Part shown: positions 37,131-62,266 of the stretch, piece by piece
Layout: each line of letters opens with the position of its first letter
Numbering within the stretch: the stretch's first letter is position 1
Assembly (NCBI GenBank): GCA_022376465.1
Contig: JACDTU010000009.1
Coordinates: 868,001 to 932,000, forward strand
Length of the DNA stretch: 64,000 nucleotides
Origin: Cubamyces lactineus
Lineage: Eukaryota > Basidiomycota > Agaricomycetes > Polyporales > Polyporaceae
Direction: 5' to 3'
Translations under genes and position numbers: made by a program
Notes under the pieces: generated by a model
Databases searched by the model: none
What the model was told of the DNA's origin: nothing
What the model saw: the letters and a program-made list of their open reading frames with translations, nothing else

Positions 37131-37166
37131 GTCGCTCCCCAGCCTTCTAGGTTCAGAAGTTCGTCA

Positions 37167-37185
37167 GGTTATGAGCCCTGCGCTC
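37167..37185 (+). other. Copia primer-binding site, half initiator tRNA-Met
   Basis: Starts GGTTATGAGCCCTGCGC directly after the LTR. This is the reverse complement of the anticodon stem-loop of fungal initiator tRNA-Met (GCGCAGGGCTCATAACC, containing the CAT anticodon), not of a tRNA 3' end. Drosophila copia and some fungal relatives use such a half-tRNA primer. Confidence 0.8.
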
Positions 37186-38144: not shown

Positions 38145-41100
38145 ATGGGCGACATCAAACCTGAATCGGTCCCTCTCCTTTCTTCGGCCAGCCAGTACGC
38201 CGACTGGGCTGCAAAGATGAAGGGTCTTCTCATGTTCATGAACTGCTGGGATGTAGTCTCTTCGGAGACGACTGAACCTACCGACGCTGAAGAGCGCAAG
38301 GAGTATAAGAAGAAGAATGCCCAGGCTTGCGGTCTGCTCTTCATGCAGACTGGGCCTAGCTTCCACTATCTCCTCGAGACGAAGACGACCAACGGTACCT
38401 CCTCTCCGGCCAATCTCACTGCCAAAGAGATGTGGGATGCGCTGAAAGACAAGTTTGGGAAACCGAACTCTGCGCACGTTTGGGGTCTCTTTGAGTCGCT
38501 CATCAGCGAGTCTCGCATGTCGGACCAGCGTTCACTTCAGGATCAGATGAGTCGGATCGTCACGCGTATCTGCGAGATCTCGACCAATGGCCTGAAGTTA
38601 GAGGACAACATCCAGGCCCTCATCCTTCTCTCCAAGGTCCCGGAGTCCTATCGACCAATGATCTCTGCGCTCATGGCCACTATGGACCTCGACAAGATCA
38701 CCGTCGACGTCATCCTCGAGAAGTCTCTCTCTGAGGAAGCCATGCGCAAGACCGGTCAATCTGCTGCTAGGATCTCCAAGACCAAGCCCAAGCCGTCTGG
38801 CCCCTGCGACTTCTGTGGCAGTCAGACCCATCACGAGTCGACTTGCTACAAGAAGCACCCCGAGCTTCGCCCCAAGGGCAACAAGGGTAAGGGCAACGGT
38901 GGCAAGAAGAAGGACAAGGATAAGGAGAAGGACAAAGGGAAGGGAAAGGACAATTCTCATGACCATGCGCACGTCTCGGCCAATGTACTTGTAGCTGAAT
39001 CCGGCTCTAACATGCATGCTTCTTTCTATGATGCGGCAAAAGCTGCTGCTGGTGTGCGGTATACTTGTTGGCTGATGGACTCTGGCGCATCTCAGCACGT
39101 CACTTGGTGCTTTGACGACTTCACCAAGTACGAACCCTTCGACAAACCACTGACCTTCAATACCGCCTCATCTGGCGAAGGTTCAGTCATTCAGGGACTC
39201 GGTCAAGGCACTGTCAAAGCTGAGACTCTTGTCGATGGTCAACGGTGGACTATCACTCTTCCAAACGTCTGCTATGTGCCTCAGGCCTCTGCACGACTGT
39301 TCTCCACCGGTACCATTGAGAAGAATGGTTATTCTCTCTTCCAAGGAGCGAGGAAGATGATGATCTTTGACAAGCAGCCGGAAGGCGCTGTTGACTCAGG
39401 CTCGACGATTCGCATCAAGGGTCGAAAGATTCTTGAGGCACCGTACAATCCTGCGAGCAATCTCTATGATTTGACTCTGGAGATTATCCTGAACAGGCAC
39501 GTCCACCTAAACGTTCGCAGTTACAAGACCTGGCATCGTCGCTTTGGTCATGCAGGCAAGGAGCCTCTTCGCCACCTGCCTAAGAACGTAAAGGGTGTTG
39601 ACCAGCTTGATCCTGCGGATGATGAACCGTGTGAGGGTTGTGCCTTTGGCAAATCCCACAGACTCCCTTTCCCGCCGTCAGAAAAGCGTGCGACTGAGCC
39701 CCTTGAGCTCGTCCACACTGATCTTGATGGGCCAATGCGCACTGCGTCAGTTGGCAGCGGATTCAAGTACTTCGCTAGTTTCATCGATGATTACTCCGGT
39801 CTCGCCCGTGCTTACTTCCTGAAGTACAAGTCGGACGCCTTCAAAGCGTTCAAGGATTTCAAGGCTTGGGCTGAGAATCAAACCGGGAGGAAAATCAAGC
39901 GAGTCCGCTCTGATCGTGGTGGGGAGTACACGTCAAACGAGTTCTCCGAGCTTCTCCGCAGCCTAGGGATCGAGCACCACAAAACCATGCCTGATTCGCC
40001 TCAGCAGAATGGACGCGCTGAACGCTGGAACCGTACAATCACTGAGAAGGCTCTGTCTATGCTTCATCATGCTGGACTTAGTCACGGTTTCTGGCAACTC
40101 GCTATCGAGGCAGCCGTACATATCTACAATCGTCAGCCTATGCGTCGCCTGAAATGGCGATGCCCCATCACTCTGTGGGATGGGACCATCCCTGATGTGT
40201 CCTATTTCCGCGTTTTTGGCTGCAAAGCCTACGTTCACGTGCAAAAGGACAAGCGCAAAGGAAAACTCGACAAGAAGGCTGTCGAGATGATCTTTGTCGG
40301 GTATGAGCAGGGTTCCAAGGGGTATAAATTCTGGAATCCAGCCACCCACTCTATCGTCGTATCTCGCGATGTGATCTTCGACGAAGAGTCTTTTCCTGCA
40401 CGCAAGATTCCTGGCAATCGTCCTGTTACCCCAGACGATAGTCCGTTCTCAGATCAAGAAGTCCCTTCAGACGATGCCTCCAATGCTGAGCCTGAAAACT
40501 TCGAGATCGATATCCCTCTTCCTATTCCTCTCCCGGAGGCCGCACCTCCTGCACCTCCTGCACCTCCAGAGCAACCTGCTCCCCCTCCTCCGCAACAACC
40601 TAATCCACCACCTGCTGTTCCTCCTCCGCGGCCTAACCACCAGCGAAATCGTCATGAGCCAGTGGGAGGTCCTAGCATAGCGCGTGATCGCCCTCGTCGC
40701 AAGAACGTTCCTAGGCCTCAGCGCTACAGGGACAGCGTGTATGGTGATGAGCCACCTGCAAAGGTTGATGCTCGTACAGACGCGGAAGGGAACTTGGAGG
40801 ACGATGAACAAGTTGTACAAACTATCATTGCGATGCTCGCTGCCGCAACCCATAAGCCTGGCATTCCTAACTCTCATCGACAAGCCATGGCATCTCCAGA
40901 CGCGGAGAAGTGGCGTGCAGCTGAGAAAGCAGAGTACGACTCGCTCATTGAGAACAAGACCTGGCTTCTTGTGCCTAGGCCGAAAAACCGACAAGTTGTC
41001 GCCAATCGTTGGGTGTATGACATCAAGCATGATGGTCGGTACAAGGCTCGTCTTGTGGCCAAGGGTTTTACTCAGGTCTGGGGGGAGGATTACAATGAAA

Positions 41101-42410
41101 CCTTCTCGCCTGTTGCGCGTTTTGAGTCGATTCGTTACCTCCTCGCGCACGCTGCACTTGAGGACTGGGACATCGAGTCAATGGACGTCAAAACTGCGTT
41201 CTTGAACGGCGACTTGGAGGAGGAGATCTACATGGAACAGCCTGAGGGCTGGGTTGTTCCTGGCAAGGAAAACTTCGTGTGTCTATTGCTGAAAGCTATC
41301 TATGGCTTGAAGCAGGCGTCTCGTCAATGGAACGCCAAGATACACCAAATCTTGCTAGATCTGGGATTCATACGGACATACTCTGATGCCGGAGTCTACG
41401 TATATCGGCGACATAGGGGGGATTCCGTCACGATCATCGTTCTGTATGTCGACGATCTACTCCTCATGGGTGACAAGCCTGGCCATATCAAGGCTACCAA
41501 GGAGGCCTTGATGCAGCGGTTCAAGATGACGGATCTGGGTCCTGTCTCGCGTTTTCTTGGTCTGAACATTGTTCGCGATCGTAAAGCTCGAACGATCGAC
41601 ATCGACCAGATAGACTACATCCAGTCCGTTCTCGAACGTTTCGACATGGCTGACTGCAAGCCGGCTCGCACTCCCCTCCCTGCTGGTGCTGTACTGGAGA
41701 AATCTAGTCACACCGCCGCCGACCACTCCCGGAAACGGTACCAGAGCCTAATTGGCAGTCTGCTCTACGCGATTTTGGGTACACGTCCGGATATTTCCTT
41801 TGCGGTCCAGAAGTTGTCCCAGTACAACTCTAATCCTAGTGACGCACACTGGAACTATGCCAAGTATGTTCTGCGGTACCTGCAAGGGACCAAAGACTAC
41901 CGGTTGCGCTACTTCGGTTCCTCGAATGACGGTCTTTTGGGTTATTCAGACTCAGACTGGGCAGAGGACCGTGATGACCGCAGGTCCACTGGAGCTTACG
42001 TCTTCTTGATGGCAGGCGGCGCTATTTCCTGGCAGTCTAGGAAACAGCCGACTGTTTCGCTCTCCTCGACCGAGGCGGAATACAAGGCTGCGTCAGACGC
42101 TTGTCGTCAAGTTGTATGGCTTCGCACGTTTGGTGAAGAGTTGGGGGATGACATCTCTCGTCCTACACCCTTGTGTCTCGACAACCAAGGGTCCATCTTC
42201 TTGTCGGTTAATCCTGTCACCGAGCGTCGCACGAAGCACGTCGACGTCCAGTACCACTACACTCGTGAACAAGCTGAGTTAGGGACGATCGACATCTTCT
42301 ACGTAGCGACAGAGGATCAACTAGCTGATTCCTTGACGAAGAACGTCTCCTTCTCTATATTGGAGCGCTTCAGAAAGGCGATTGGTCTAGTCTCTCCCTC
42401 CGCAGTTTGA
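38145..42410 (+). CDS. Copia Gag-Pol polyprotein (intact)
   Basis: About 1421 residues from the first ATG (MGDIKPESVPLLSSASQYAD), a typical Copia Gag start. Gag (UBN2-like) is followed by a CCHC zinc knuckle CDFCGSQTHHESTCY (about 38804) in a Lys/Gly-rich tail. The protease is WLMDSGASQHVT (about 39070). A GAG-pre-integrase His/Cys segment lies near 39535-39660. The integrase core starts HTDLDGPMRTASVGS, with DRGGEYTSNEF and SPQQNGRAERWNRT supplying the acidic triad. A Pro-rich linker (about 40540-40630) leads to reverse transcriptase with WVYDIKHDGRYKARLVAKGF and the catalytic YVDD at 41445-41456. RNase H has YSDSDWAEDRDDRRSTGAY and SLSSTEAEYKA. The C-terminus includes TKHVDVQYHYTREQ. No stop or frameshift interrupts it, so the element may be competent. 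Confidence 0.95.
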   Translation: MGDIKPESVPLLSSASQYADWAAKMKGLLMFMNCWDVVSSETTEPTDAEERKEYKKKNAQACGLLFMQTGPSFHYLLETKTTNGTSSPANLTAKEMWDALKDKFGKPNSAHVWGLFESLISESRMSDQRSLQDQMSRIVTRICEISTNGLKLEDNIQALILLSKVPESYRPMISALMATMDLDKITVDVILEKSLSEEAMRKTGQSAARISKTKPKPSGPCDFCGSQTHHESTCYKKHPELRPKGNKGKGNGGKKKDKDKEKDKGKGKDNSHDHAHVSANVLVAESGSNMHASFYDAAKAAAGVRYTCWLMDSGASQHVTWCFDDFTKYEPFDKPLTFNTASSGEGSVIQGLGQGTVKAETLVDGQRWTITLPNVCYVPQASARLFSTGTIEKNGYSLFQGARKMMIFDKQPEGAVDSGSTIRIKGRKILEAPYNPASNLYDLTLEIILNRHVHLNVRSYKTWHRRFGHAGKEPLRHLPKNVKGVDQLDPADDEPCEGCAFGKSHRLPFPPSEKRATEPLELVHTDLDGPMRTASVGSGFKYFASFIDDYSGLARAYFLKYKSDAFKAFKDFKAWAENQTGRKIKRVRSDRGGEYTSNEFSELLRSLGIEHHKTMPDSPQQNGRAERWNRTITEKALSMLHHAGLSHGFWQLAIEAAVHIYNRQPMRRLKWRCPITLWDGTIPDVSYFRVFGCKAYVHVQKDKRKGKLDKKAVEMIFVGYEQGSKGYKFWNPATHSIVVSRDVIFDEESFPARKIPGNRPVTPDDSPFSDQEVPSDDASNAEPENFEIDIPLPIPLPEAAPPAPPAPPEQPAPPPPQQPNPPPAVPPPRPNHQRNRHEPVGGPSIARDRPRRKNVPRPQRYRDSVYGDEPPAKVDARTDAEGNLEDDEQVVQTIIAMLAAATHKPGIPNSHRQAMASPDAEKWRAAEKAEYDSLIENKTWLLVPRPKNRQVVANRWVYDIKHDGRYKARLVAKGFTQVWGEDYNETFSPVARFESIRYLLAHAALEDWDIESMDVKTAFLNGDLEEEIYMEQPEGWVVPGKENFVCLLLKAIYGLKQASRQWNAKIHQILLDLGFIRTYSDAGVYVYRRHRGDSVTIIVLYVDDLLLMGDKPGHIKATKEALMQRFKMTDLGPVSRFLGLNIVRDRKARTIDIDQIDYIQSVLERFDMADCKPARTPLPAGAVLEKSSHTAADHSRKRYQSLIGSLLYAILGTRPDISFAVQKLSQYNSNPSDAHWNYAKYVLRYLQGTKDYRLRYFGSSNDGLLGYSDSDWAEDRDDRRSTGAYVFLMAGGAISWQSRKQPTVSLSSTEAEYKAASDACRQVVWLRTFGEELGDDISRPTPLCLDNQGSIFLSVNPVTERRTKHVDVQYHYTREQAELGTIDIFYVATEDQLADSLTKNVSFSILERFRKAIGLVSPSAV

Positions 42411-42412
42411 AC

Positions 42413-42421
42413 GAGTGGGAG
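42413..42421 (+). other. Copia polypurine tract
   Basis: GAGTGGGAG immediately 5' of the 3' LTR, the expected plus-strand primer site. Short and broken by one T. Confidence 0.55.
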
Positions 42422-42954
42422 TGTTGAACTTCCAGGTTATCGGCTGTGCCGGACCGGGAATGTGGACCTTATGGCTGTGGCGCCTACAACGCGCACAGCA
42501 TGGACTTTATTCCTTTTATGGACTGCTCAGTGTACGTACTGTAGTTGGACATTCCTTGATTCTCTCCATCTTTCCGTTGCGTTCTACACTGCTACGGATC
42601 CTTCCAGAGGGTTCTATACCTATGACACCATATGTCGCGATACTCGCACCATGGTCTTACTCATCGTACATAGCGATCACATGCCTCCTTTCTTCGCTTA
42701 CTCATGGCACTCCTCTCTCAATATATAAGGAGGACATTCTTCGCCCCTGCTCTTCAGTCGTTCGCTCACAGACTGAAGAGTAAGTTCCCTTATTACCTAT
42801 GGTTTATATGCAGTTACTTACTGAGTACTTGTAGCTTCTTTGTGTCGCTTTCAGGTACTTATACTATGCAATAGAGTCGTTCGCTCACAGACTGAAGACT
42901 TCTTTGTGTCGCTTTCAGGTCGCTCCCCAGCCTTCTAGGTTCAGAAGTTCGTCA
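42422..42954 (+). repeat. Copia 3' LTR (533 bp)
   Basis: By eye identical to the 5' LTR, including the internal A-intron-B / A-B duplication. It is followed by target duplication CCGAT at 42955-42959. Confidence 0.95.
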
Positions 42955-42973: not shown

Positions 42974-42978
42974 GACTC
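42974..42978 (+). repeat. Target-site duplication of Gypsy element (left)
   Basis: GACTC, repeated at 51295-51299 directly after the 3' LTR of the Gypsy element. Confidence 0.95.
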
Positions 42979-43671
42979 TGTTACGCTCCGTGCTGTAACC
43001 CCGAAGCCCGATCCCCGAACCCCCGTACCCCGCTCCTTACTCCGCGTTACGTACTCCGTTCCTCCGTACTCCGCTCTTCCGTACCCCGTACCCCCGACTC
43101 CGTTCTCCGTACTCCGCACTTCGTACTCCGTACTTCGGACTTCCCCCGACCCCATGACTTACATGTCTCAGATAACCCCTCATGGCGCTACCTACATGAG
43201 GCTTTTGCTTACTGAGCTATCTACGTTATCTTACCCTTGGCAAGTTACTTCGTACTTTCGTTCTACTCCTTCCTATCACGTACATCTCTTATTGTTTCTA
43301 TCGGGTTTCTGACTTAGTATAAATACTGCCCCGGAATGTAGTAGCTACTCAGTTCGGAAATCTCGTTATACCCATTACTGGTTCAACTCGTAGTCCGACA
43401 CTCAACCCCGACCCTCTAGTCCGACCAACCTTCGTTCCCTTCCTACCAACCCCTTCAACCCAACCCCGTTCCCAAGTCCGACCTTCGTCCCGTCAAGTCC
43501 GTACTCCGAAGTCCGCAAATAGAGGACACCGAGTCGGAACCCGTGCGTTACTAATAGTTTCGCGAAAGTCCTCACCCCAGTGCTAGTCCGACCTCCGGTC
43601 GTACTCCGACCCCGAACTCCGTCCAAGTCCCGACCACCGGAGTTGTACCCCCGGACGGCACGGTCCTAACA
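42979..43671 (+). repeat. Gypsy 5' LTR (693 bp)
   Basis: Starts TGTTACGCTCC and ends GTCCTAACA. The first 180 bases are packed with CCGTACTCCG-like repeats. A TATA box (TATAAATA, 43318-43325) predicts a start at about 43351. Confidence 0.95.
43318..43325 (+). promoter_or_regulatory. TATA box in Gypsy LTR
   Basis: TATAAATA, 33 bases upstream of the 11-base segment that is complementary to the primer site (43351-43361). This spacing fits a transcript that starts with that segment. Confidence 0.7.
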
Positions 43672-43673
43672 GT

Positions 43674-43684
43674 ATTTCCGAACT
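43674..43684 (+). other. Gypsy self-priming primer-binding site
   Basis: ATTTCCGAACT, two bases after the 5' LTR. It is the exact reverse complement of AGTTCGGAAAT at 43351-43361, at the predicted transcript 5' end. No tRNA 3' end (TGG...) is found here. This is the Tf1/sushi self-priming arrangement, in which the first 11 bases of the RNA fold back and prime minus-strand synthesis. Confidence 0.8.
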
Positions 43685-43702
43685 CCCCGGGTTTCACTCA
43701 AT

Positions 43703-45171
43703 ATGTCCACTCGAACCGTAGTCCGCACTCAGACGCAATCTCGCGCCCTAGAGCAAGAAGACCCCGCCGAGAACTGGAGTGGCTGGACAGCTCGCCGAGG
43801 CGACTCAGCGACGCAAGAAGAAGCTACTCCGAGCCGCCGCGGGCAGTTCGCTCGAACAATCGTCGAAGCGTCCTCCGATGGGGACGACGAAGGTGACCCG
43901 CCTCAGCCTCTGGTCATCTCTACCGCGACTGCCTCGCAGGTACCCCGCGAGCCATCTCCGGGGAACCCGTTCTCCGAGGGTCAGCCTTCAGGTCCGAGCC
44001 GCGGGCCTCCGGGTCCGCCTAGTCCTCCAGGTCCGCCGGGCCCTCCAGGACCGCCAGGCCCTCCGGACAACGACCCACAAGGGCCGGGAGACGACGACAC
44101 TAGCTCAAGCTCGGACTCCTCCGACTCCGAAGACCGGGTTCAGTCGCAACTAGCGACCGCGATCTCTCTCATCGCGCGTACCCTCGAACGTACTACCGCT
44201 CCAACTCCGGCGGTTACCCAACCTTCGAACAACGAGCGGCACAACGTCCGCGAGCCGGACCAGTTCGACGGGTCCGACCCCAACAAACTCCGGTCCTTCT
44301 TCATGCAGTTGGAACTTGTCTTCAAGGCCCGACCCCGAACCTTCGACTCCGATGAGAAGAAGGTGACCTACGCCATCTCCTTCCTCAAGGGCACCGCGCT
44401 ACAGTGGTTCGAGCCCTACCTCCTCGAAGGCGACTCGGACAACCCCCCATCTTCCTTACATCCTACGACCACTTCCAGGAGGAACTCCGAGTGAACTTCG
44501 GTCCTTACGACGCCTCCGGAGCTGCGGAGCATGAGCTGATGAACCTCCGGATGGGCGACAACCAGCGGATAGCTAAGTACATCACTCAGTTCACCCGCCT
44601 CGCTACTCAAGTCCGTTGGGGTAATGCTCCGCTCCGGTACCGGTTCTACGACGGACTTCCGAACCGTCTCAAGGACCGCATCTCCGAGGTCGGCAAGCCC
44701 GAGACCCTGGTGGCCCTTCGCGACCTCGCGCAGTCGATCGACAACCGCTACTGGGAGCGCAAGGCCGAGGTCTCGCGCGAGTCCGGACCTTCGAAGTCCG
44801 GTAACAAGTCGACCTCCGACTCCAAGTCCTCCAACTCCGGCAACAAGTCCGGAGGTAACAACTCCGGACAGGCCTCCTCGTCTACCCCGTCCAAGTCCGG
44901 CAATTCCGGTATTTCGTCGAAGTCTCCTAAGACTCCGAAGACCCCGGCCAAGACGTACACCGACAAGCTCGGTAAGGACGGAAAACTCACCCCCGAGGAG
45001 CGTCAACGCCGTTTCGCCAACAATCTCTGTCTCTTCTGCGGTGGAGCTGGTCATACCGCGAGTGCTTGTCCGAGGAAGACCTCGTCCGCGACTAAGGGTC
45101 GCGCCGCTCAAGCCAACCCCGCTCCCGCTGCGCCCGCTCCGGCTGCAGCCCCGAAGGAGACAAAAAATTAG
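43703..45171 (+). pseudogene. Gypsy gag, frame broken in a C-run
   Basis: Starts at ATG 43703. It begins with an acidic region and a collagen-like Gly-Pro-Pro run (about 44000-44080), then an Asp/Ser tract. The capsid domain begins near REPDQFDGSDPNKLRSFF. The first frame runs into a stop at 44494. From 44443 the next frame continues the capsid (FQEELRVNFGPYDASGAAEH), a Ser/Lys/Gly-rich linker and the CCHC knuckle CLFCGGAGHTASACPRK (about 45034). It ends at TAG 45169-45171. The change of frame falls at six C residues (44443-44448); one C fewer than needed suffices to explain it. An alternative is -1 slippage on C-CCC-CCA, but a slip in mid-capsid would be unusual, so I favour a mutation or sequencing error. 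Confidence 0.8.
45162..45168 (+). other. -1 ribosomal frameshift site, gag to pol
   Basis: A-AAA-AAT in the gag frame, a valid X-XXY-YYZ heptamer, directly followed by the gag stop TAG (45169). After a -1 shift the frame reads Lys-Lys-Leu-Val-Arg and stays open into the protease and the rest of pol, which has no suitable ATG of its own at its beginning. Confidence 0.8.
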
Positions 45172-48100
45172 TCCGCGGTCCTCCGAACTCCGTACCCCGT
45201 GAGGACCGCGTTGACTCCTCTGGTACGGAGATCCTCAGGCTCAACGCGTCCGCTCTTTCCGACCCCCATGCACTCTTCCTCGACTTGTACTCCGATCCTA
45301 TCCCAACTCCGTTCCGCGCCCTTATCGACTCCGGTTCCTCCCATTGTTTCATCGACTCCGATTTCGCGACTATGTATCAACTCCCAACTACCGCCGTAAC
45401 CCCGCTCCGTCTACAGCTTTTTGACGGTACTTCTAACCACCTGATTACTTCGTTTACCACTCTGCCCGTACATTTCCCGTCTGGAGAAGTCCTCAATATA
45501 GATTTCTATGTTACTCCGCTCGACAAGTCCGTGTCTGCCGTTCTGGGATACAGCTGGCTCTCCGCCTACAATCCGTTGATTGACTGGAAGAAGCGCAGCA
45601 TCCAATTCCGTTCCGCACCCCCGCCGCGTCCTGTTTCTGACACCATGGTACCCCCGCCAGCTCCGGCTGAGCGTACTCCGTCTACTCCGTCTACTCCGGC
45701 TACTCCGGAACTACCGACTTCTCCTACTCCGACCTCCGTACCCCGGATCTCCCTTGTGAACGCTGCTGCTTTCGCTCGGGCTTGCAAACTCCCGGGGTCC
45801 GCGAGCTATACCCTGAACCTGTCTACCCCGGACTTGGCTACTGCGCGGAGTTCGTCCATCTCCGACTCTCCCCCGGACCTCACCGGAGTTCCGGAGGAGT
45901 ACCACGAGTTTGCGGACGTCTTCAGCAAGACCAAGGCCGACATCCTACCGGAGCATCGCCCCTACGACTTAAAGATCGACCTGGAAGAAGGGGCTACTCC
46001 GCCACTCGGACCTATTTACTCCCTCTCAAAACTCGAGCTCGACACGCTTCGGGAGTATATTGACGAGAACCTCCGATCGGGGTTCATACGTCCGTCCAAC
46101 TCTCCCTGCGGAGCTCCCGTCCTCTTCGTCAAAAAGAAGGACGGATCTCTTCGCCTTTGCGTGGACTACCGGGGCTTGAATAAGATCACCCGGAAGGACC
46201 GCTACCCCCTTCCTCTCGTCTCGGACTTGCTGGACGCGCCTCGGAAGGCCCGGATCTATACCAAAATCGACCTCCGTCACGCCTACAACCTAGTCCGCAT
46301 AGCTCCCGGAGATGAGTGGAAGACCGCGTTTCGGACCCGCTATGGGTCTTTCGAATGGTTAGTCATGCCGTTCGGACTTTCTAACGCGCCCGCTGCTTTC
46401 CAGCGGTTCGTCAATGACATCTTCGCGGACATGCTCGATGTGTGCGTCATCGTCTACCTGGACGACATCCTCATCTACTCCGACAACCCCGAGCAACACC
46501 GCAAGCACGTCAAAGAGGTACTCCGGCGACTCCGCAAGCACCGGCTTTATGCCCGCGCTGACAAGTGCGAGTTCCACACCGACTCCGTCGAGTACCTCGG
46601 TTACATCCTCTCTCCCACCGGACTCACCATGGCGGAGTCGAAGGTTAAGGCGATCTTGGATTGGCCCGAACCCCGGAAGGTCCGCGACATACAGTCGTTC
46701 CTGGGGTTCGCGAACTTCTATCGACGGTTTATTCCAAACTACTCCGAGATCGTACTACCGCTGACCCGCTTAACCCGCAAGTCCGTGCCTTGGCACTTCT
46801 CCGAGGAATGTCGGAGTTCGTTTAACGCTCTCAAGAAGGCGTTCACGACAGCTCCGGTACTACACCACTGGATGCCCGACCGACCCCTCACCGTCGAGAC
46901 TGACGCCTCGGACTACGCCATCGCCGGCATTCTCTCCCTTACCACCGAGTCCGGTGAACTCCACCCCATTGCTTTCCACTCCCGCACCTTGACCGGCGCG
47001 GAGTTGAACTACGACACCCACGACAAGGAACTCCTCGCGATCTTCGAATGTTTCAAGACCTGGCGGCACTACCTCGAAGGTTCGGCAACCCCGATCGACG
47101 TTGTCACGGACCACAAGAATTTGGTATACTTCGCGACTACGAAGTTACTGACCCGCCGTCAAGCCCGATGGTCGGAGTTCCTCTCGCAGTTCAACCTCGT
47201 AGTCCGGTTCTGGCCAGGTAAGCTTGGAGTGAAGCCCGACGCACTGACACGCCGTTGGGACGTCTACCCAAAAGAGGGGGGCAGTGACTACTCCGTCGTC
47301 AACCCACACAACTACCGACCGGTTTTCACCCAGGAGCAGCTCGCCGCGTCCCTCCGGGCTACCTACCTCCGACCCCCCGTACTCCGAGCTTCCTTCGTCC
47401 TCGACTCCGAACAACTCCTCTCGGACATCAAGTCCGCTCAAGCAACCCCGACTCCTGACCCCGAACTATCTGCTGCACTCAAGCTCGCCTCCGAAGGTAA
47501 CTCCCGATGGTCCCGCGATGAAGACGGGCTACTCCGACTCTCAGGTCGAGTCTATGTCCCGAACTCCGGCGACCTCCGCCTTCGCGTACTCCGAGCTTGT
47601 CACGACCACCCTACTGCCGGACACTGGGGACAGAACAAGACGCAAGCCCTGGTCCTGCGGGACTACGCCTGGCCCGGACTTCGACTCTTCGTCCGGGACT
47701 ATTGTAAGTCCTGTACTACCTGTGCGCGAGCTAAAGTCCCCCGGCATCTCCCCTACGGTACTTTGAAGCAACTCCCGATCCCCGAGCGACCCTGGAACTC
47801 CATCTCCATGGACCTCATCGAGCAACTCCCGAACTCCGCTGGCTACACCGCGATCTTGGTGGTAGTCGACAGGCTCACTAAGCAAGGTATATTCATCCCT
47901 ACCCACGACACGCTTACAGCCTCGGAGTTAGCGGACTTGTTCGTACTCCATGTGTTCTCCAAGCACGGAGTTCCCTCGCACGTTACCTCCGACCGGGGCT
48001 CGGAGTTCGTCTCTCACTTCTTCCGCTCCCTCGGTAAGGCCCTCGACATGCGCCTTCACTTCACCTCCGGTTACCACCCGGAAGGCGACGGTCAAACCGA

Positions 48101-48893
48101 GCGGGTTAACCAGACCCTCGAGCAGTACCTCCGGATCTATTCGAACTACCAGCAGGACAACTGGTCCCAACTCCTTCCCTTGGCGGAGTTCGCGTACAAC
48201 AATGCTCCGTCCGCAACTACCGGTATATCCCCGTTCTTCGCGAACAAGGGCTACAACCCCGCCATCTCCGTCTACCCCGAGCGGGACCTCACCTCCGCTC
48301 GAGCTCGCGACTACGCTGTCGACCTCGACGAACTTCACACCCAACTCCGACAGCAGATCGCCGAAGCCCAGGCCCGGTACCAAGTACAGGCGGACAAACA
48401 CCGTCTACCCGCGCCGGACTTCAAGGTCGGAGATCAGGTCTATGTCCGAGCTCAGCACATCCGGACTACTCGTCCCTCCAAAAAGTTGTCCGAGAAGTTC
48501 TTAGGTCCGTTCACTATCATCGCGCAGGTCGGAACTCACTCCTTCACCCTCCGACTACCGGACTCTATGCGCGCGGTACACCCCGTTTTCCATGTCTCAC
48601 AACTCGAGCCTGCAACTCCGAACACCATCCCCGGCCGCGTCCAAACTCCGCCACCTCCGATCCTGGTGGACGGAGAACCGGAGTACGAGATTTCGGAGAT
48701 CCTCGACTCCAAGATTGACCGCCGGCGTCGGAGTTGTCAACTCCTGTACCTAGTCCGATGGGCAGGCTACGAAGGTACGGACGAAGAAACTTCGTGGATC
48801 TTGGCCACGGAGCTCGGACATGCCCAGGAGCTAGTTTCGGACTTCCACGCAGCTTACCCGGACAAGCCCGGACCTCTTGCTAAATTGTCTTGA
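45168..48893 (+). CDS. Gypsy Pol with chromodomain
   Basis: About 1240 residues reached by -1 frameshift. The aspartic protease is RALIDSGSSHCFID (about 45317). Reverse transcriptase has LRLCVDYRGLNKITRKDRYP, FEWLVMPFGLSNAPAAFQRF and the catalytic YLDD at 46454-46465. RNase H begins VETDASDYAIAGILS and includes YDTHDKELLAIFE. Integrase has the HHCC zinc finger (ACHDHPTAGHWG, then YCKSCTTCARAK). Its catalytic core includes SMDLIEQLPNSAGYTAILVV, TSDRGSEFVSHFF and GYHPEGDGQTERVNQ, followed by a GPY/F-like segment. The C-terminal chromodomain is EYEISEILDSKIDRRRRSCQ, then LVRWAGYEGTDEETSWI (about 48680-48800), which in chromoviruses directs integration to heterochromatin. No internal stops. Confidence 0.95.
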   Translation, partial: LVRGPPNSVPREDRVDSSGTEILRLNASALSDPHALFLDLYSDPIPTPFRALIDSGSSHCFIDSDFATMYQLPTTAVTPLRLQLFDGTSNHLITSFTTLPVHFPSGEVLNIDFYVTPLDKSVSAVLGYSWLSAYNPLIDWKKRSIQFRSAPPPRPVSDTMVPPPAPAERTPSTPSTPATPELPTSPTPTSVPRISLVNAAAFARACKLPGSASYTLNLSTPDLATARSSSISDSPPDLTGVPEEYHEFADVFSKTKADILPEHRPYDLKIDLEEGATPPLGPIYSLSKLELDTLREYIDENLRSGFIRPSNSPCGAPVLFVKKKDGSLRLCVDYRGLNKITRKDRYPLPLVSDLLDAPRKARIYTKIDLRHAYNLVRIAPGDEWKTAFRTRYGSFEWLVMPFGLSNAPAAFQRFVNDIFADMLDVCVIVYLDDILIYSDNPEQHRKHVKEVLRRLRKHRLYARADKCEFHTDSVEYLGYILSPTGLTMAESKVKAILDWPEPRKVRDIQSFLGFANFYRRFIPNYSEIVLPLTRLTRKSVPWHFSEECRSSFNALKKAFTTAPVLHHWMPDRPLTVETDASDYAIAGILSLTTESGELHPIAFHSRTLTGAELNYDTHDKELLAIFECFKTWRHYLEGSATPIDVVTDHKNLVYFATTKLLTRRQARWSEFLSQFNLVVRFWPGKLGVKPDALTRRWDVYPKEGGSDYSVVNPHNYRPVFTQEQLAASLRATYLRPPVLRASFVLDSEQLLSDIKSAQATPTPDPELSAALKLASEGNSRWSRDEDGLLRLSGRVYVPNSGDLRLRVLRACHDHPTAGHWGQNKTQALVLRDYAWPGLRLFVRDYCKSCTTCARAKVPRHLPYGTLKQLPIPERPWNSISMDLIEQLPNSAGYTAILVVVDRLTKQGIFIPTHDTLTASELADLFVLHVFSKHGVPSHVTSDRGSEFVSHFFRSLGKALDMRLHFTSGYHPEGDGQTERVNQTLEQYLRIYSNYQQDNWSQLLPLAEFAYNNAPSATTGISPFFANKGYNPAISVYPERDLTSARARDYAVDLDELHTQLRQQIAEAQARYQVQADKHRLPAPDFKVGDQVYVRAQHIRTTRPSKKLSEKFLGPFTIIAQVGTHSFTLRLPDSMRAVHPVFHVSQLEPATPNTIPGRVQTPPPPILVDGEPEYEISEILDSKIDRRRRSCQLLYLVRWAGYEGTDEETSWILATELGHAQELVSDFHAAYPDKPGPLAKLS

Positions 48894-49000
48894 AGTTCAC
48901 ACGCGGAGTTCTCACCAGCAGATTTCTTTCTATACTCCTCCGCACTCGGACTACAAGATACTAGCTACGAAGTCCGAGGTCCGAAGTCCGTACTACCGCC
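48894..49000. other. Spacer between pol stop and antisense gene stop
   Basis: About 107 bases separate the convergent ends of pol (plus) and the antisense Zn2Cys6 gene (minus). It contains tccgaag/gtccg repeats like those in the LTR. Confidence 0.4.
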
Positions 49001-50394
49001 CTACTCCGCCATGTCCATGTCCGCCGGGTCCTCCGGCCCCTTCCCCTCCTTCGCGCCCTCGCCCTGCTCCTCCTCCTCCTCACCGGACTTGCCCCGCGCG
49101 GACTTGTCCAACCCCGACCCATTCTCCTCCTCCCAGTCCGACCCAGCAACCCCCGCCCGCTCCAGCGCGTCCGCGATCGCGTCCTCCTTGTCCTGCGAGG
49201 TGATCTCAAGGATCTCCCGCAGCATAGTCCCGAACTCCGTCGCGAGTTCGGACTTCACCGCCTCGCGGACGGCCTCGCCGATGACGGCCTTCAACTCCTT
49301 CCGCACGATCTTGGCGATGGCATCGCCAAGACCCCGGACCTCCTCCCGCATCATCTCCTCCCGCTGCTCCTCCTCGTCGACCAGCAGGTCGATGACCCGC
49401 CCCGCGGTGCGCCGGTTGCGCTGCACCGCGACGAGCAGGTGCTCGAGGAGCTCCCGGTCGGAGAGCTTCTCCGGGTCGTCGGACCACCGGAGGTCGGACT
49501 TCCCAACCTCCGGAAGTCCGGAGCTGGCGGACATCCGAGGGCCCGTCGACGAGCCTGCGATGCTCGGGCCTCGGGCGACGACTGTTCGTGCTGGGGGGTT
49601 AATTCCGGGTGGCGCGACAAAGGTCCATCGGACCTCACCTGGCTGCAGCGGCTTCTCCGCCGCCTTCTCCACCGTCTTCTCCTTCTCCTTCTCCTTCCCC
49701 TTGCCCTTCTCCGCCCGCACCTTCTCCGAACTCCGAACTCCGGTGGGCGCGGGGGTCTCAAACCCGTCGTCGTCGACGACGATGGGGGCGGACTTGACCT
49801 TCTTGCGCTGCGGGCTTGGGGCCTCCTCCTTGCGCGCGATCCGGGCTTGGATGTCCGCGGGAAGTCCGCGGGCCCCGACGCACGCGCGCGACCGAGCTTT
49901 CTGGCATTGGACGCAACTCGACGTCCGTTTGCCCGCGCGGAACCGGCACGCGATTTGCTTCGCGGCGCACCGGTCGCACCTCGTCCTGTGGAACTCCGTT
50001 AGTCCGACCCCCGTACTCCGTACCCCGACCGGACTTACCGCGGGACGAGCAACTCCGCGTTGTCCTCTTCCTCCTCCGACTCCGGCTCCTCGTCCTCCGC
50101 GGGACGCTTGCTTCCCCGCGCGGAAGCCCCGGCCTTCGCGAGGGCAGCCTGGCGGATCAGCGCTGCTGCCTTCTGCGCGGCCTCGTACTCCGCGCGCTCT
50201 TTCTCCTCCTGTGCTCGCTCCTCCTCCGCTTTTCGCGCCCTGTAAACCACCGTTAGCCCGAACTCCGTACTCCGCAACCCCGGCAACCCCGGTACTTACG
50301 CTTCGGCTGCTGCGGCCTCCTCCGCCGCTGCCTTCATCCGGAGCTGCGCAAGGTGCGCCTCCAAAGCCTGAATGTTGTCGAGGGTTGAGGACAT
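49001..50394 (-). CDS. Antisense Zn2Cys6 protein carried inside the Gypsy element
   Basis: Three exons: 50394-50300, 50239-50039, 49985-49001. Both introns are GT-AG (GTAAGT donors), the frame closes and the product is 426 residues. Exon 1 (MSSTLDNIQALEAHLAQLRM) and exon 2 form a Glu/Ala/Arg-rich coiled coil ending in an acidic patch (EEEPESEEEE-type). Exon 3 starts with a binuclear zinc cluster: C-X2-C-X6-C-X10-C-X2-C-X7-C, within CDRCAAKQIAC and CVQCQKARSRAC. This fits the fungal GAL4-type consensus. Basic KGKGKEKEKEK and central VVARGPSIAG segments follow. The C-terminal helical region (LSDRELLEHLLVAVQRNRRT, IVRKELKAVIGEAVREAVKS) may oligomerise. The protein ends DPADMDMAE at TAG 49001-49003. 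It could be a DNA-binding regulator of the element or of the host; its function is unknown. The antisense introns are expected to survive retrotransposition because the genomic RNA is sense. Confidence 0.8.
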
Positions 50395-50455
50395 AGTGCT
50401 GGTGGTGGTGGTGGGAGACAAAGAGCGAGGACGAACTGGCTAAGTCTCACCCCCG

Positions 50456-50463
50456 TCTTATAT
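50456..50463 (-). promoter_or_regulatory. TATA box of the antisense gene
   Basis: On the minus strand the sequence reads GTGTATATAAGACG around this position, about 65 bases before the antisense ATG at 50394. It lies between the gene and the 3' LTR, so the passenger gene appears to have its own promoter and not to depend on the LTR. Confidence 0.6.
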
Positions 50464-50589
50464 ACACCTTTCTTCATCGATTCTGACCCTGCCCCGATTC
50501 TTGATCTCCGTTCCCTGGACTTATCGGATTACCTTTTTTGGACAGACTTCCATTTCCCTTCACTATAGGCCCTCAAGGGTTCGGGCCTA

Positions 50590-50598
50590 GGGGGGAGG
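50590..50598 (+). other. Gypsy polypurine tract
   Basis: GGGGGGAGG four bases... shortly before the 3' LTR at 50602, the expected plus-strand primer. Confidence 0.7.
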
Positions 50599-50601
50599 CA
50601 C

Positions 50602-51294
50602 TGTTACGCTCCGTGCTGTAACCCCGAAGCCCGATCCCCGAACCCCCGTACCCCGCTCCTTACTCCGCGTTACGTACTCCGTTCCTCCGTACTCCGCTCT
50701 TCCGTACCCCGTACCCCCGACTCCGTTCTCCGTACTCCGCACTTCGTACTCCGTACTTCGGACTTCCCCCGACCCCATGACTTACATGTCTCAGATAACC
50801 CCTCATGGCGCTACCTACATGAGGCTTTTGCTTACTGAGCTATCTACGTTATCTTACCCTTGGCAAGTTACTTCGTACTTTCGTTCTACTCCTTCCTATC
50901 ACGTACATCTCTTATTGTTTCTATCGGGTTTCTGACTTAGTATAAATACTGCCCCGGAATGTAGTAGCTACTCAGTTCGGAAATCTCGTTATACCCATTA
51001 CTGGTTCAACTCGTAGTCCGACACTCAACCCCGACCCTCTAGTCCGACCAACCTTCGTTCCCTTCCTACCAACCCCTTCAACCCAACCCCGTTCCCAAGT
51101 CCGACCTTCGTCCCGTCAAGTCCGTACTCCGAAGTCCGCAAATAGAGGACACCGAGTCGGAACCCGTGCGTTACTAATAGTTTCGCGAAAGTCCTCACCC
51201 CAGTGCTAGTCCGACCTCCGGTCGTACTCCGACCCCGAACTCCGTCCAAGTCCCGACCACTGGAGTTGTACCCCCGGACGGCACGGTCCTAACA
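50602..51294 (+). repeat. Gypsy 3' LTR (693 bp)
   Basis: Same length as the 5' LTR with one difference seen by eye (T at 51261, C at 43638). Followed by target duplication GACTC at 51295-51299. Confidence 0.95.
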
Positions 51295-51299
51295 GACTC

Positions 51300-52653
51300 A
51301 TAGGATCGGGCACAATCCTTCTACACATTCAGAGATGATTACAACTCTCGGGCAAACACTGGTCATTCGAACAGAACAAGGAAATATGGCAGTTTAAACA
51401 AGCAATATATTTCTGATGACGGAAGTACATATGACACAGGTACATGACATATATATGCATATACAAAAGGGACATGGGCGTGAGGCCCGAATGTCAATCG
51501 TATGATTGTCCGCTGTGGCGCCAGCTGAACGTGAGCGGTACTTGGTACTCAGCATGTAGCAAAGAGACTCCAGAAGGCGACGCATCCCAAGACCAGTGCA
51601 CAGGGTAGAGTTCGCCTAGGCCCAGAGACTCAGATCAGCCCAACCAAGCGATAGCTGTAGATGTAGCACCCAGACAGTAGCAAGACTGGCAGATATCCGC
51701 AGACAAGTTCAAAGACTAGCAAAGACGTCGCAGCACGGAGGGACCAGAGCCAGGAGTGCCGGAAGATAGCTGTCTTGGTACGAATCCACAGCTAAGACAA
51801 TACGAAGTTAGTACACCTCAGAGAGGTGGCACCTAGGTAGTATAGCTACATGGAAGAAGGGGGCTGTGAGTCCACGTCACGACGTTGCCTACAAATTGTA
51901 TATTCAAACCCCGACGTGGTCCTATATAGTACCTGTCTATTGGCATAGGCTATTGGCGCAATCAAGCGCGCGTCCTCGTATTAGATTGCAAGTCGTCGGA
52001 ATGATTGCAAGGGCTTGGCAGGCCTTTGAAAGTTATTGTGAGATGACTGTAATGCGGTTGCAAGCCGATTTCAAGATGCATCATAATAAGACCGCTTGAG
52101 TTGGTTTGTATCGAGGCAACGTATGATAATCAATTATAACTCTATTATAACCAAGTATAAGAAGACGAATTCTCGCGCGGGCCACAATTTGGACGCCTTT
52201 TTCGTGATGTAGCGCCCCATCGATCCGAGAGTTGTTGTCATGAGTTGGTTGTCCGATTGCTCATGACATCCGTGATAGCTATTGAAACATGAGAGACATT
52301 GCTGAAGTCAACAAGGATAATAATACTGGGAATCCCGGGCCTATACGGTAATGTCGTGGTACGAGGACAAACCGGTGATGAGGTCAGAAATCATTGCGCG
52401 ATACGAAACGCTTCGGCAAGCGCCGTGGAGTAGGCGCTCATTTCGCGCGTCCAATCCACTTGCAAGAGCCTTGCCGCCACTTCACAACCGCTCCCCAGTA
52501 TCCCTAGTATCTTGACATCAGTAGTACTACAGTAGTCAGGTATGTAGTGCCTGATATACCAGTCTTACTCCAGTGGTATGAATTTGATACTGATTCATTG
52601 TGATTTTGCCTCAGCTCCGCCCCACCGAGTCCCAACGTCGACCTGTACGCGTG
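51300..52653. other. AT-richer intergenic region upstream of BTB gene 2
   Basis: About 1.35 kb of host DNA with no supported gene. A stretch at about 52080-52170 is AT-rich (tataactctattataacc). The likely promoter of BTB gene 2 is at the right end, and a short 5'-UTR intron (gtatga...cctcag, about 52577-52614) is possible. Confidence 0.4.
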
Positions 52654-54304
52654 ATGTCTCGAACCTTGGACGATTCCCAATTACTTTCAACACCATCACT
52701 CGGACAGCCGGTTGAGGCTTCTGCACCTTTCAATCAATCTTCAGCGGATATTATCTTGAGGACATCAGATCACGTCCTCTTCCGGGTCCATTCCCAGATC
52801 CTGGCACAGGCGTCCCCACTATTTGCTGACATGTTCGAGCTGCCTCAGCCCGGGCGAAGTTCTTCGGGCCCGCCGATCATCTGCATTTCCGAGGATGGCG
52901 AAACGCTCGACCTGCTCCTTCGTCTCCTTTACCCGATCCCGAAGAAGCAGCTGCAGATGAACAGCCCAGAGCGGCTGGTTCCTGCCCTCAAAGCGGCGCA
53001 GAAGTACGAGATGGGTCTACCTCTGGAGGCAATGTCCGAGCGACTCACCGCGATCGTTCCTCGGGAGCCGCTTCAGGTGTGGGCTGCCGCATGTCGCTCT
53101 GGCCTAGAGGATATCGCATATCAGGCCGCAGTGGTTCTCAGAAAGCCTGCTCAGAGCTTGACGAACCAGGCAGCCACCTCTCAGCAAGGTACTGTGAAGG
53201 AGGCCCTGACAATGATGGATAGCCTCGGGGACATGAACGGCATCTCTGCCGCGGACTATCTCCGATTGAAGCGCTTCCTCCGCGCACCACAACAACAGGT
53301 CGACGGGGGCGGATTGAAGCTCTTGAGCTCTTTACCAAGTGAGGGTAATCCGAGCTCGATCAGCCAGACACCGTTCTCTACGGATCTCCCACAAACGGAC
53401 GTGCTCTGTCGTTCGACACATCCTGCGGATGCTCCGCAGACGCTCCTCGCCCATCAGGCAATTCTCTCTGTCCACTCCCAGGTCTTGCGCGCACGTATAA
53501 CCAGTCTTCGCACCGATGATTCTAACGGCCAAACATCAGGAACGTTGGTTCTAGACTTTGATGACGATCCAGACATCGTGTCTGCATTGATGCTGGCCTG
53601 CTACGAGGGGTTTTCTGGCCTCCCTACACGCCTTGACGCCTTGGGTCGTCTCCTCCTTGCTGCGCAAAAGTACAAGATGCCACAAGTCGAGCAAATGGTC
53701 CATCTGGCTTGGGAGAAATTGGCTGGAGAAAATCCGTTAGAAGCGTTCTATGTCGCCGTGAACCACGGGCTGAAGGAGCAGGCAAAGACTTCTGCGAAGG
53801 CCGCGTACCGTCATCGTGCCCTGGACACATACCTTGCGGAGATGGAGCGCACGCCAGCGCTGGCGTATCACCGCTTATTGACATACCACGACTCATGTCT
53901 ACAAGTCATTCGGGAACGAGCAGCAACCGCGAGTAACAAAATTCCCGCACATGCAAACTTATGTACCGCTCAACATTCAACCTTCTTAAACCGTGGCGCT
54001 TCGGTGGACACGACTACAATGAGAACCGCGGTAATGAGTGCCGACGTGGTTGCAGGGCCCACAGAGCCTTTCTCTCTCAGTATCAAGCGCGCTTTCCAGC
54101 AGACTCTGCGGACTTCAATCGCGACGTATTCCAACAGTTACGTCGCGCAAGGGTTCAGAGACCTAACGTACAATGTCATCGAACTACTGGGTGATCTTCC
54201 GGAAGAGATAGAACGTGCTGTGAATGATGTAAGTTGTCGTCTTCTAATAGACGGCTGGCACTAATTTACCATCTGCGTGTCAGGTTGAGGTCAAATTGCC
54301 ATAA
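52654..54304 (+). CDS. Double-BTB/POZ protein 2
   Basis: Join 52654-54228, 54284-54304; the frame closes at TAA (531 residues). The start ATG gives MSRTLDDSQLLSTPSLGQPV. BTB block 1 is SADIILRTSDHVLFRVHSQI, then LAQASPLFADMFELPQP, with LLLRLLYPIPKKQ and ALKAAQKYEMGLPLE. A helical block REPLQVWAAACRSGLEDIAY follows. BTB block 2 is DVLCRSTHPADAPQTLLAHQ, AILSVHSQVLRARI and ALMLACYEG. The C-terminal tail includes NPLEAFYVAVNHGLKEQA and MERTPALAYHRLLTYHDSC. A phase-0 intron precedes a seven-codon final exon (V-E-V-K-L-P-stop), as in BTB proteins 1 and 3. It is closest in sequence to BTB protein 3, which starts 589 bases downstream. Confidence 0.87.
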
Positions 54305-54892
54305 GGTGAATATCCGTTACTTCGATTTGGACCTCGTTCCGGCAAGGTGTGAGCTAGGATACTCAGCTGACGCCCTTCATCCAAGTCCTAGACGTGGCGT
54401 TAGAGGACCCTAGGTGTGTGTTAGGGCTCCTGCAGAACAGCCCGAGCAGAATGATAGAATGGTATGCTATTCCCGTGTTACTGCACATGCCCCCCCTGAC
54501 TCAAGAGTTGTTTTGCGTGGCGAAGGGTCTCACATGTATCTTGGAATTGTCGTGTTGTAGTAGTATTCACTCAGCGGGTTTGTGCAAGCGTGAGCGCGCA
54601 TACATGCGTGTTACAACGCCATACGAACTACTAGTAGCATTGCTTGAGCTCAAGAATTCGACATTCGGTGCTCACAGAGAAGCAAAGACAGCCTTCGCGG
54701 CTCCTTCGCACCAAGGCTCAGCTCAGCAGCTCATGCCAGCCGCAGCACTGTAGTGCGGCCTCCTCGAGGCAAAACCTATATACCGTAGGTCAAGCACCCA
54801 ATCTATACGTCCAACAAGCAAACCCTCACCTGTGTCGCCCCGTTCTTCCCGCGCCCGACCTGTCCTTGTCCTCGATCATACACCTCACCAAC
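54305..54892. other. Spacer between BTB genes 2 and 3
   Basis: About 590 bases in a head-to-tail pair; the BTB 3 promoter should lie at about 54770-54800 (aacctatataccg, TATA-like). Confidence 0.45.
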
Positions 54893-56604
54893 ATGTCACA
54901 TCCTCTTCCACCAGACACAATAGCATCAGCACCAACAAACCCCCGCGAGCCATCCGCGCTCTTCAACCAGCCCTCAGCCGACTTCATCTTGCATACCCCC
55001 GACGGCGTTGACTTTCGTGTGCACTCACAGATCCTCGCGCAAGCCTCCCCCTTCTTCGCGGCCATGCTCAGCCTACCCCAGCCCGCCCCACAGGTTCCCC
55101 AAGACGTTGCAGACCCGCCTCAGCCCCACGAGTCCGAGCACGATTCCAAAGCCACGGCGGAGCCGCGTGCCAACGTCTCCGAGGACAGCGTGACGCTAGA
55201 CGCGCTCCTGCACCTCGTGTACCCAGTGCCGAAGACGGAGATGGAGGATCCCGCGCAGACGCTCCCGTTGGTCAAGGCTGCGATCAAGTACGAGCTGGCG
55301 CTGCCTCTGCAGATTCTCTGCCATTGGCTCGTCGCGGTCGTGCCCCGCCAGCCCCTCCTCGTGTGGGCGACCGCATGCCGCACGGGCCTGGAGGACGTCG
55401 CCCGGCATGCCGCCACGGAGCTCAGTAAACAGGATGCGCTCAACCTCAGCTCGAAGCCGAACGTGGAGGCGATGGCGTTCGTAGACAGCCTCGGGACCAT
55501 GGACGACATATCCGCGGCGGACTACTTTCGCCTCAAGCGGTTCCTCCGGTGCAAAGGGGTGCCCGCGGAGGGCGAGAGCTCGTTGCTGCTAAGCCCTACG
55601 TCGGCGGAACTGACAGAGAGAGCGCCATGCGACGTGCCTTTTGGGCGGTTCTCGACAGACATCCCGTCAACGGACGTCCTCTGCCGACCTGTGAATCCGG
55701 GAGAAGAACCGACTGAGCCATTGCGCGCGCACGAGGCCGTGCTCTCGGTCCACTCCACAGTGCTGAAGGCGAGCCTCGCCGGTCACCGGGACCCTGTCTC
55801 TAGTGACTGCGCCTCTGTTGCCCCGCTGGATAGATCGCCTTGCCGTTCGCTCCACTTCGACGAGGACGAAGCACTGGTCTCCGCCCTTTTGACCGTCTGC
55901 TACCACGGACGCGCCAGCTTAGATATACCGCGCCCCCCGACGACGTTGGCTGCACTCCTGAAAGCAGCGGAGAAGTACGACATGGCGGACGTCGCTCATT
56001 GGACCCAGGCAGCTTGGGACGAAACAGCAGCCCGCTCGCCGCTGGAGGCGTACTACGCTGCCATCGCTCATGGGCTCGAAGGATACGCCAAGGGCGCAGC
56101 GCTGAAGGCACTGGAACGCCCGTGGCTCCTCACAACACTCTATATCCCCGTGATGGAGAGGACGTCAGCTCCTGTCTATCATCGATTATTGAAGTTCGTG
56201 GACACATGCCGCCTGGTCGTCCAAGGAGCGTTGCACCCCATTCTTTCAGCCCTGCGGGGACGCTTGCAAAAAAGACCTCGTCCACAGCAATGGTTGATAC
56301 GAAGACATTGGCCCGAGGCGTATTGCGCAGACTTGAGGCTGTCAGTGCTACCGGGGCGCCGCCACGAGATTCGGAAATCAGGACGTTGGACGAGTTTCTG
56401 CCGGCAATCTTGAAAGACATACTCCCCTATGTAGCGCTACTCGGCGCCGCGGACAATACTGCGATCCCAGACGCAGCTTGGCAGCTACTCACTATCCATA
56501 AAGAAATTAAATTGGAATGCGCAACCGTACGTTGACTTTGACCTTCTGTAGAGCTATGCCGATTTCTGAACACTGATGTTGTATCCATGTAGGTCACCCT
56601 CTGA
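54893..56604 (+). pseudogene. Double-BTB/POZ protein 3, frame broken near its C-terminus
   Basis: The start ATG at 54893 gives MSHPLPPDTIASAPTNPREP. BTB block 1 is SADFILHTPDGVDFRVHSQI, LAQASPFFAAMLSLPQP, with LLHLVYPVPKTEM. BTB block 2 begins DVLCRPVNPGEEPTEPLRAH. The helical tail has SPLEAYYAAIAHGLEGYAKG and MERTSAPVYHRLLKFVDTC. The first frame is open to 56413. The expected C-terminal block (LARGVLRRLEAVSATGAPPR, LDEFLPAILKDILPYVALLG) is in the -1 frame from about 56270. The shift can be explained by one missing A in a run of six (56269-56274). The -1 frame then reaches a GT-AG intron (about 56530-56592) and a final exon V-T-L-stop at 56593-56604. It could be a pseudogene, an assembly error or a slip site. 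Confidence 0.75.
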
Positions 56605-61921: not shown

Positions 61922-62266
61922 CGTGAGGTGGATGAATGGCAAGACGAGGATGAGTAGGGCGAGGAGCGATCCGTATTATAGTCCACGATGTTGTCACGAG
62001 GTAGAGCCTGAGCATATGAACCTTCATTTGGCATGCGTGTATACTACCGCAGCTGCTGTCTCGTGGGCCTGCGGTACAGCATCGTCGTAGTGCTCGCACC
62101 CCTGCCGCGTGTGTTCTATATGAGTCAAGAAGTCTTCTTTTGTTATGCCGCAAACGCGTACCCATCCAATGTGACACTGTGTCTTTGGTTCCATCAGTCA
62201 CCTATCGAGTCATGATGTGAGCCATGGCAGCTCTACCTACAAGTGCGAACTACAATGAGCGCCTTG
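61922..62266. other. Spacer between BTB genes 4 and 5
   Basis: About 345 bases; promoter of BTB 4 (tandem minus-strand arrangement). No other feature. Confidence 0.35.

Follow-up and report, generated by a model that had tools for sequence, protein, structure and literature searches.

An antisense gene for a Zn2Cys6-like protein in a Ty3/gypsy chromovirus family of Cubamyces lactineus

The antisense gene and the element that carries it

The 64,000-nucleotide (nt) stretch of DNA analyzed here (the window) corresponds to positions 868,001 to 932,000 of contig JACDTU010000009.1 (assembly GCA_022376465.1) of the polypore Cubamyces lactineus, whose genome comprises 36.3 Mb in 43 contigs. At 42979-51294 of the window lies a Ty3/gypsy chromovirus with the reverse transcriptase (RT)-RNase H-integrase order and the C-terminal chromodomain typical of this group (PF00385, 26.3 bits against a cut-off of 25.1). 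Between its pol gene and its 3' long terminal repeat (LTR), a gene with three exons, two introns and a closed spliced frame of 426 amino acids runs on the opposite strand. An earlier reading of the DNA from its letters alone (the sequence-only reading) had proposed this minus-strand gene with two GT-AG introns, a cysteine cluster and a TATA box of its own about 65 bases upstream. Its structure and positions are confirmed, and the TATA box corresponds to TATATAAG, found at minus-strand positions 50464-50457, some 63-70 nt ahead of the ATG. The gene is laid out as follows:

50451..50560, minus strand: presumed antisense promoter, containing TATATAAG
50300..50394, minus strand: exon 1 with the ATG; 95 nt in every intact copy
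50240..50299, minus strand: intron 1, 60 nt, GTAAGT...CTAAC...CAG; 51-61 nt across intact copies
50039..50239, minus strand: exon 2, 201 nt; length in intact copies 201-237 nt, divisible by three throughout
49986..50038, minus strand: intron 2, 53 nt, GTAAGT...CTAAC...CAG
49001..49985, minus strand: exon 3, with the Zn2Cys6-like cluster, a basic stretch, a long C-terminal helix and an acidic tail

As an unspliced stop-to-stop frame of 481 amino acids is also open on the minus strand at this locus, openness alone is no proof of a gene and comparative data must decide. The intact copies and the constraint described below reject a chance frame.

Residence of the gene in the chromovirus family

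A search of the C. lactineus genome with the antisense protein returned 75 matches, which fall into 57 places if fragments are included, some of them perhaps pieces of a single copy. At 17 places the match to the protein of the window is 99-100% identical. For clustering into places and pairing with RT, 65 of the 75 protein-match rows were entered, the remaining rows being fragments inside listed places, together with 46 of 115 RT rows, other families at 50-56% having been left out. An antisense gene of its own lies downstream of the RT match, on the other strand, at 38 of these 46 family RT places, and at 30 of the 38 it lies 1920-1923 nt past the RT match; a gene was found for a 39th place, C22:4362, which shares that of its neighbor and is not counted. 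At three places the RT match is full and yet no antisense gene was seen, and there the fetched DNA is also missing the 3' end of pol; at the remaining places without the gene the RT match itself is only partial.

In the 30 best loci the pieces of LTR, promoter stretch, exons and pol follow one another in a single order, the exceptions being L038, an older family copy whose exon 2 contains a family LTR and whose upstream part was not seen, and L030, where exon 1 is displaced by about 800 nt. Among ten more divergent copies (L039-L048), LTR, promoter stretch and exon 1 adjoin in six, while in L042 and L044 the promoter stretch and exon 1 lie at the edge of the fetched DNA and in L039 and L043 the upstream part has been lost. 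No free-standing host homologue was recognized, ten of the 19 places without a paired RT having been fetched. Thus this chromovirus family has the antisense gene as a resident third gene, carried in the element and copied with it through other copies and subfamilies in this genome, as the sequence-only reading had supposed. The one-off capture or chance frame that the same reading named as its refutation is not borne out, given the 57 places and the 24 intact copies among 40 fetched.

One copy, L026, matches the window copy exactly in the 3' part of pol and in the gap between pol and the antisense gene, and its antisense gene and LTR are those of another subfamily; by its sequence it would be a recombinant, perhaps generated by template switching.

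Splicing, coding constraint and the promoter stretch

The spliced frame is uninterrupted in 24 of the 40 fetched copies. In these intact copies, exons 2 and 3 vary only by multiples of three around a constant exon 1, and intron 1 is free in length (51, 52, 59, 60 or 61 nt). Intron 2 is present in all 40 aligned copies, with the GTAAGT kept in 39 and the CAG in 40, and no clean loss of either intron was seen among them. Such retention is expected if only sense RNA is reverse-transcribed, and it agrees with the earlier proposal that antisense introns survive transposition. A Cubamyces database relative (P0002) aligns well across the second exon junction, and across the first via low-complexity sequence.

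The ratio of nonsynonymous to synonymous change (dN/dS), reported only for pairs with more than 15 differences and lowered somewhat by the restriction to intact copies, is 0.07-0.16 between the window copy and eight intact divergent copies and 0.25 for the most divergent one. Other pairs mostly give similar values, the highest (0.44, for L026 and L033) resting on few differences. Third codon positions hold most of the differences between copies, and when the changes were placed at random 1000 times in a context-matched manner, no placement gave as few amino-acid changes in any of the nine comparisons with the window copy. These values are near those of the 3' part of pol (0.02-0.13 in seven copies, omitting L027, L034 and L035, where pol has been replaced and the alignment is meaningless, and L026, which has no pol differences). 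The distribution of changes thus shows purifying selection on the encoded protein.

The stretch ahead of the gene is also conserved. Across 11 divergent copies, 50451-50560 is 97-100% identical and 50561-50601 is 100% identical, against 95-97% for U3, 86-93% for the 5' untranslated region, 85-98% for the introns, 70-100% for the gap between pol and the gene, and 95-100% for pol where alignable. As a presumed polypurine tract lies inside 50561-50601, part of the conservation of that segment serves the sense strand. The antisense gene accordingly has a conserved stretch of its own in the position of a promoter, which is presumably its role.

A Zn2Cys6-like cysteine cluster

The cysteines of the 426-residue protein are arranged as C-X2-C-X6-C-X10-C-X2-C-X7-C, within the range known for Zn2Cys6 domains, C-X2-C-X6-C-X(5-12)-C-X2-C-X(6-8)-C. 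This six-cysteine pattern recurs in all 24 unique intact frames, 22 of which contain no other cysteine, and in full in eight of 14 database relatives, the pattern being incomplete in the other six, which are shorter models or have lost a part. The 13 named relatives are hypothetical proteins of Trametes or Cubamyces (the latter a genus of Polyporaceae), in searches that scored only the best 8000 or so candidates. With the single antisense protein as query, no relatives were found among IMG/VR and GTDB contigs. A comparison of gene relatives with 120 listed of 7985 rows yielded no contig agreement by which gene and pol could be linked in Trametes.

The Pfam Zn_clus profile (PF00172) does not match the antisense protein at E<=10, nor eight members of A1. 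A genome scan with Zn_clus found 62 places, 43 of them over the Pfam cut-off and none an element copy; only four of 16 host Zn_clus stretches contained the complete pattern and were used for the profile. In the AlphaFold2 models a short helix stands at each CxxC, with a block confidence (pLDDT) of about 69-85; the longer model also contains a helix some 100 residues in length. Foldseek searches with the first model retrieved Gal4, Leu3, Put3 and Hap1, with all seven chains being of the Zn2Cys6 type, and searches with the second model, built only from cluster-holding relatives, retrieved Gal4, Ppr1 and Leu3 (five of five), all of these matches being weak (E >0.5). We call the product Zn2Cys6-like because of the spacing and these weak fold matches, in the face of the missing Pfam match; to this extent the Zn2Cys6 cluster named in the sequence-only reading stands. 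The rows of one alignment (A3, only the eight cluster-holding relatives) were chosen for the cluster, so that its invariant cysteines are no evidence and were not counted. A profile search of PDB sequences gave nothing significant, the Zn2Cys6 protein LAC9 ranking fourth at E 6.9. A NEIL3-type zinc ribbon (phmmer E 0.023) was considered and rejected, there being no such match in the fold searches.

With Gal4-type factors the antisense protein shares the six-cysteine spacing, a long helix and an acidic tail, and it may also resemble them in its predicted fold; it differs from them in lying below Pfam detection, in the 10-residue loop between the third and fourth cysteines and in the distance of the long helix from the cluster.

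An ACTCCG motif throughout the element

The sequence-only reading had pointed to CCG-containing motifs in the LTR as possible half-sites for such a protein. The enrichment is strong and real, which strengthens the idea, and it is element-wide and not LTR-specific, which weakens it in that form. From 42979 to 50601, ACTCCG occurs 56 times in the forward and 14 times in the reverse orientation (CGGAGT), an enrichment of about 40-fold relative to the host parts of the window; for TACTCCG the figure is about 80-fold. The motif is densest in the LTR (9 against 0.6 expected, 13 per kb), which has arrays in U3 at 43050-43134, followed by 7.9 per kb in the antisense gene and 6.9 in gag-pol; the strand-biased enrichment thus extends over coding, intron and LTR sequence. 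ACCCCG and AGTCCG are enriched less than ACTCCG.

In pol, ACTCCG falls in all three codon phases (11, 10 and 6) and occurs 27 times, against 8.0 in synonymous-codon shuffles, a count reached in none of 1000. CGGAGT, AGTCCG and CGGACT likewise exceed the shuffles, which reject codon or amino-acid usage as the cause in pol; in control shuffles of a copia open reading frame (ORF) and two BTB frames, no motif fell below 63 of 1000. Paired TACTCCG is found 492 times genome-wide against 15 for the reversed pattern, counted irrespective of membership in the family. Seven stretches at other gypsy loci hold 0-1.3 sites per kb on both strands together (L052 counted from base 701). Among the first 100 paired matches listed, one site (C3:1170395-1170487) shows tandem gain of a 12-nt motif unit; it is close to the antisense gene at C3:1169424, probably within the LTR belonging to that gene.

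CpGs within the motif have changed less often than other CpGs in intact gene copies (2/86 against 141/1347) and in the LTR (1/72 against 32/403), and hardly differently in pol (4/70 against 55/698) and in decayed copies (28/139 against 559/2169). Protection of the motif CpGs from decay is a trend only, site permutation being not significant in the two sets tested, and no single comparison of motif retention rose above chance.

Comparable systems

The sequence-only reading knew of no described Gypsy element with this arrangement, which was mistaken, as antisense genes between pol and the 3' LTR were described earlier in the plant elements Grande, RIRE2 and Retand and, as brtn, in Boty of Botrytis (PMC7264820). 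In the search listings examined, which cover open-licence PMC papers, we found no account of a Zn2Cys6-like or basidiomycete antisense gene in this position. As portrayed in papers that cite it, Boty (BcGypsy1) of Botrytis cinerea is likewise a fungal gypsy element with a gag-pol chromodomain and a single antisense gene between pol and the 3' LTR (PMC7264820, PMC8365987, PMC4227169); the likeness is one of position and strand, and no Botrytis protein is among the database matches of the antisense protein. An open gene on the opposite strand between pol and the 3' LTR in most copies, here 38 of 46, agrees with the class termed aORF-3R, to which Grande gene23, the RIRE2 ORF and Retand TRP28 belong; gene23 is driven by a promoter of its own and its product is nuclear, and TRP28 is predicted to bind DNA (PMC7264820, PMC11963269). 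These differ from the present gene in their plant hosts and other domains, Retand being a non-chromovirus, and the relevant passages of the two reviews mention no zinc cluster.

HBZ of human T-cell leukemia virus type 1 (HTLV-1) is a bZIP protein made from a spliced transcript. It resembles the present case as an antisense-encoded nuclear regulator of a retroelement (PMC11963269), and differs from the antisense protein in domain and virus type.

The VANC proteins of Arabidopsis VANDAL elements are element-encoded and associated with a dense, short, element-specific motif (PMC5735166, PMC10398659). VANC21 motifs are described as dense, of one orientation, tandemly repeated, present in introns and mainly noncoding (PMC5735166), and VANC binding leads to loss of silencing marks (PMC5735166, PMC10398659). 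The chromovirus too has a dense element-specific motif with arrays in one orientation, the orientation being a 56:14 bias and not absolute. Unlike VANDAL, a DNA transposon with motifs mainly in noncoding sequence, it also carries them in coding DNA, with 14 of 70 sites reversed. The proposed likeness is one of mode of working, as judged from the motif pattern.

Possible function and alternatives

According to the best explanation we can offer, to which we assign a probability of about 0.45, the product is a self-recognizing DNA-binding accessory protein that raises or protects the expression of its own family. The gene would have a promoter of its own beside the 3' LTR, and its transcript, spliced twice, would give a DNA-binding protein with the Zn2Cys6-like cluster, a coiled-coil-like helix and an acidic tail. 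This protein would recognize CGG-containing sites (ACTCCG read as CGGAGT), mostly in one orientation along the element DNA, and, by binding in trans to copies of its own family, would raise or protect their expression, for example by countering silencing as VANC does on VANDAL. Its expression, its binding of zinc and DNA, its recognition of ACTCCG and the direction of its effect are all matters that we infer. That the motif throughout the element, read by a Zn2Cys6-like antisense protein acting in trans, marks copies for counter-silencing or activation is in itself doubtful. If true, this self-recognition pair would be convergent with VANC and VANDAL, and we know of no earlier retrotransposon with a motif and a protein matched in this way. 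For fungal DNA transposons a different means of countering methylation has been suggested, namely TET/JBP genes (PMC12730594). Regulation of the LTR promoter, of copy number or of host genes, as suggested in the sequence-only reading, stays conjectural.

A repressive autoregulator, which binds the U3 arrays and lowers sense transcription as a copy-number control in the manner of HBZ, is an unlikely alternative: the peak of motif density in the LTR and the existence of antisense-encoded nuclear regulators in retroviruses (PMC11963269) speak for it, but the enrichment extends beyond the LTR and the family has spread to dozens of places, 17 of them near-identical to the window copy in protein, so that any such control is not tight. 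We give similarly low odds to a role in the replication cycle, with the protein tethering or carrying the pre-integration complex in the nucleus, or serving as a nucleic-acid chaperone, and ACTCCG being an unrelated signal for RNA packaging or Gag binding. The bias of the motif to the genomic-RNA strand and its presence in all three codon phases of pol would fit such a signal, and nuclear roles have been suggested for such proteins (PMC7264820); yet the cluster is like those of DNA-binding regulators, and a gene on the opposite strand with its own promoter stretch implies that the protein is not made from genomic RNA.

It is very improbable that the antisense RNA and not the protein matters, through double-stranded RNA or transcriptional interference. 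Convergent transcripts could overlap and such roles have been proposed (PMC7264820), but the low dN/dS, the indels in threes and the kept cysteines denote selection on the protein, a coding constraint that largely refutes a purely noncoding antisense RNA. A passively captured host gene or functionless frame can be practically dismissed, since, common as Zn2Cys6 genes are in the host, with 43 places above the Pfam cut-off, the gene recurs in divergent subfamilies, is under purifying selection, keeps its promoter stretch conserved and is without a recognized host counterpart among the places fetched; an old host-gene capture is a possible origin.

According to reviews of 2020 and 2025, antisense genes located between pol and the 3' LTR are of unknown function (PMC7264820, PMC11963269). 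With a DNA-binding-like domain, a selection signature, a candidate binding site and a promoter stretch that is conserved, the present family makes this question directly testable. It also shows how introns, together with a gene transcribed separately, can persist in a retroelement that is repeatedly reverse-transcribed.

Other features of the element and its surroundings

The remaining features of the element are:

42974..42978: target site duplication GACTC, with its second copy at 51295-51299
42979..43671, plus strand: 5' LTR, TGTTAC...TAACA, with TATAAAT at LTR position 340; its U3 holds arrays of TACTCCG-like units of 7-9 nt
43674..43684, plus strand: candidate primer-binding site for self-priming, with complementarity of 11 nt to 43351-43361
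43703..45171, plus strand: gag, in two frames in the window copy (43703-44494 and 44356-45171)
45096..48893, plus strand: pol, 1265 codons, with protease, RT, RNase H, integrase, SH3-like domain and chromodomain
50589..50599, plus strand: polypurine tract presumed from sequence, just 5' of the 3' LTR
50602..51294, plus strand: 3' LTR

As the two LTRs differ at one of 693 positions and are flanked by GACTC, the insertion is recent. The partner of the candidate primer-binding site lies about 30 nt past the TATA box of the LTR, and this 11-nt pairing near the expected 5' end of the transcript suggests self-priming, as in Tf1, in place of tRNA priming.

Another gypsy family of this genome (pol of about 1220 amino acids) has an extra ORF of about 425 amino acids in the sense orientation directly after pol (L052:1178-2452, minus strand), with 102 genome matches and no convincing Pfam match. 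Directly upstream of the chromovirus lies a copia element (36631-42718) whose LTR stretches are identical for 300 nt or more and whose gag-pol frame of 1575 amino acids is open, and both retrotransposons are surrounded by a cluster of BTB/POZ genes (34441-36288, 52594-54264, 54638-56413 and 60341-61975).
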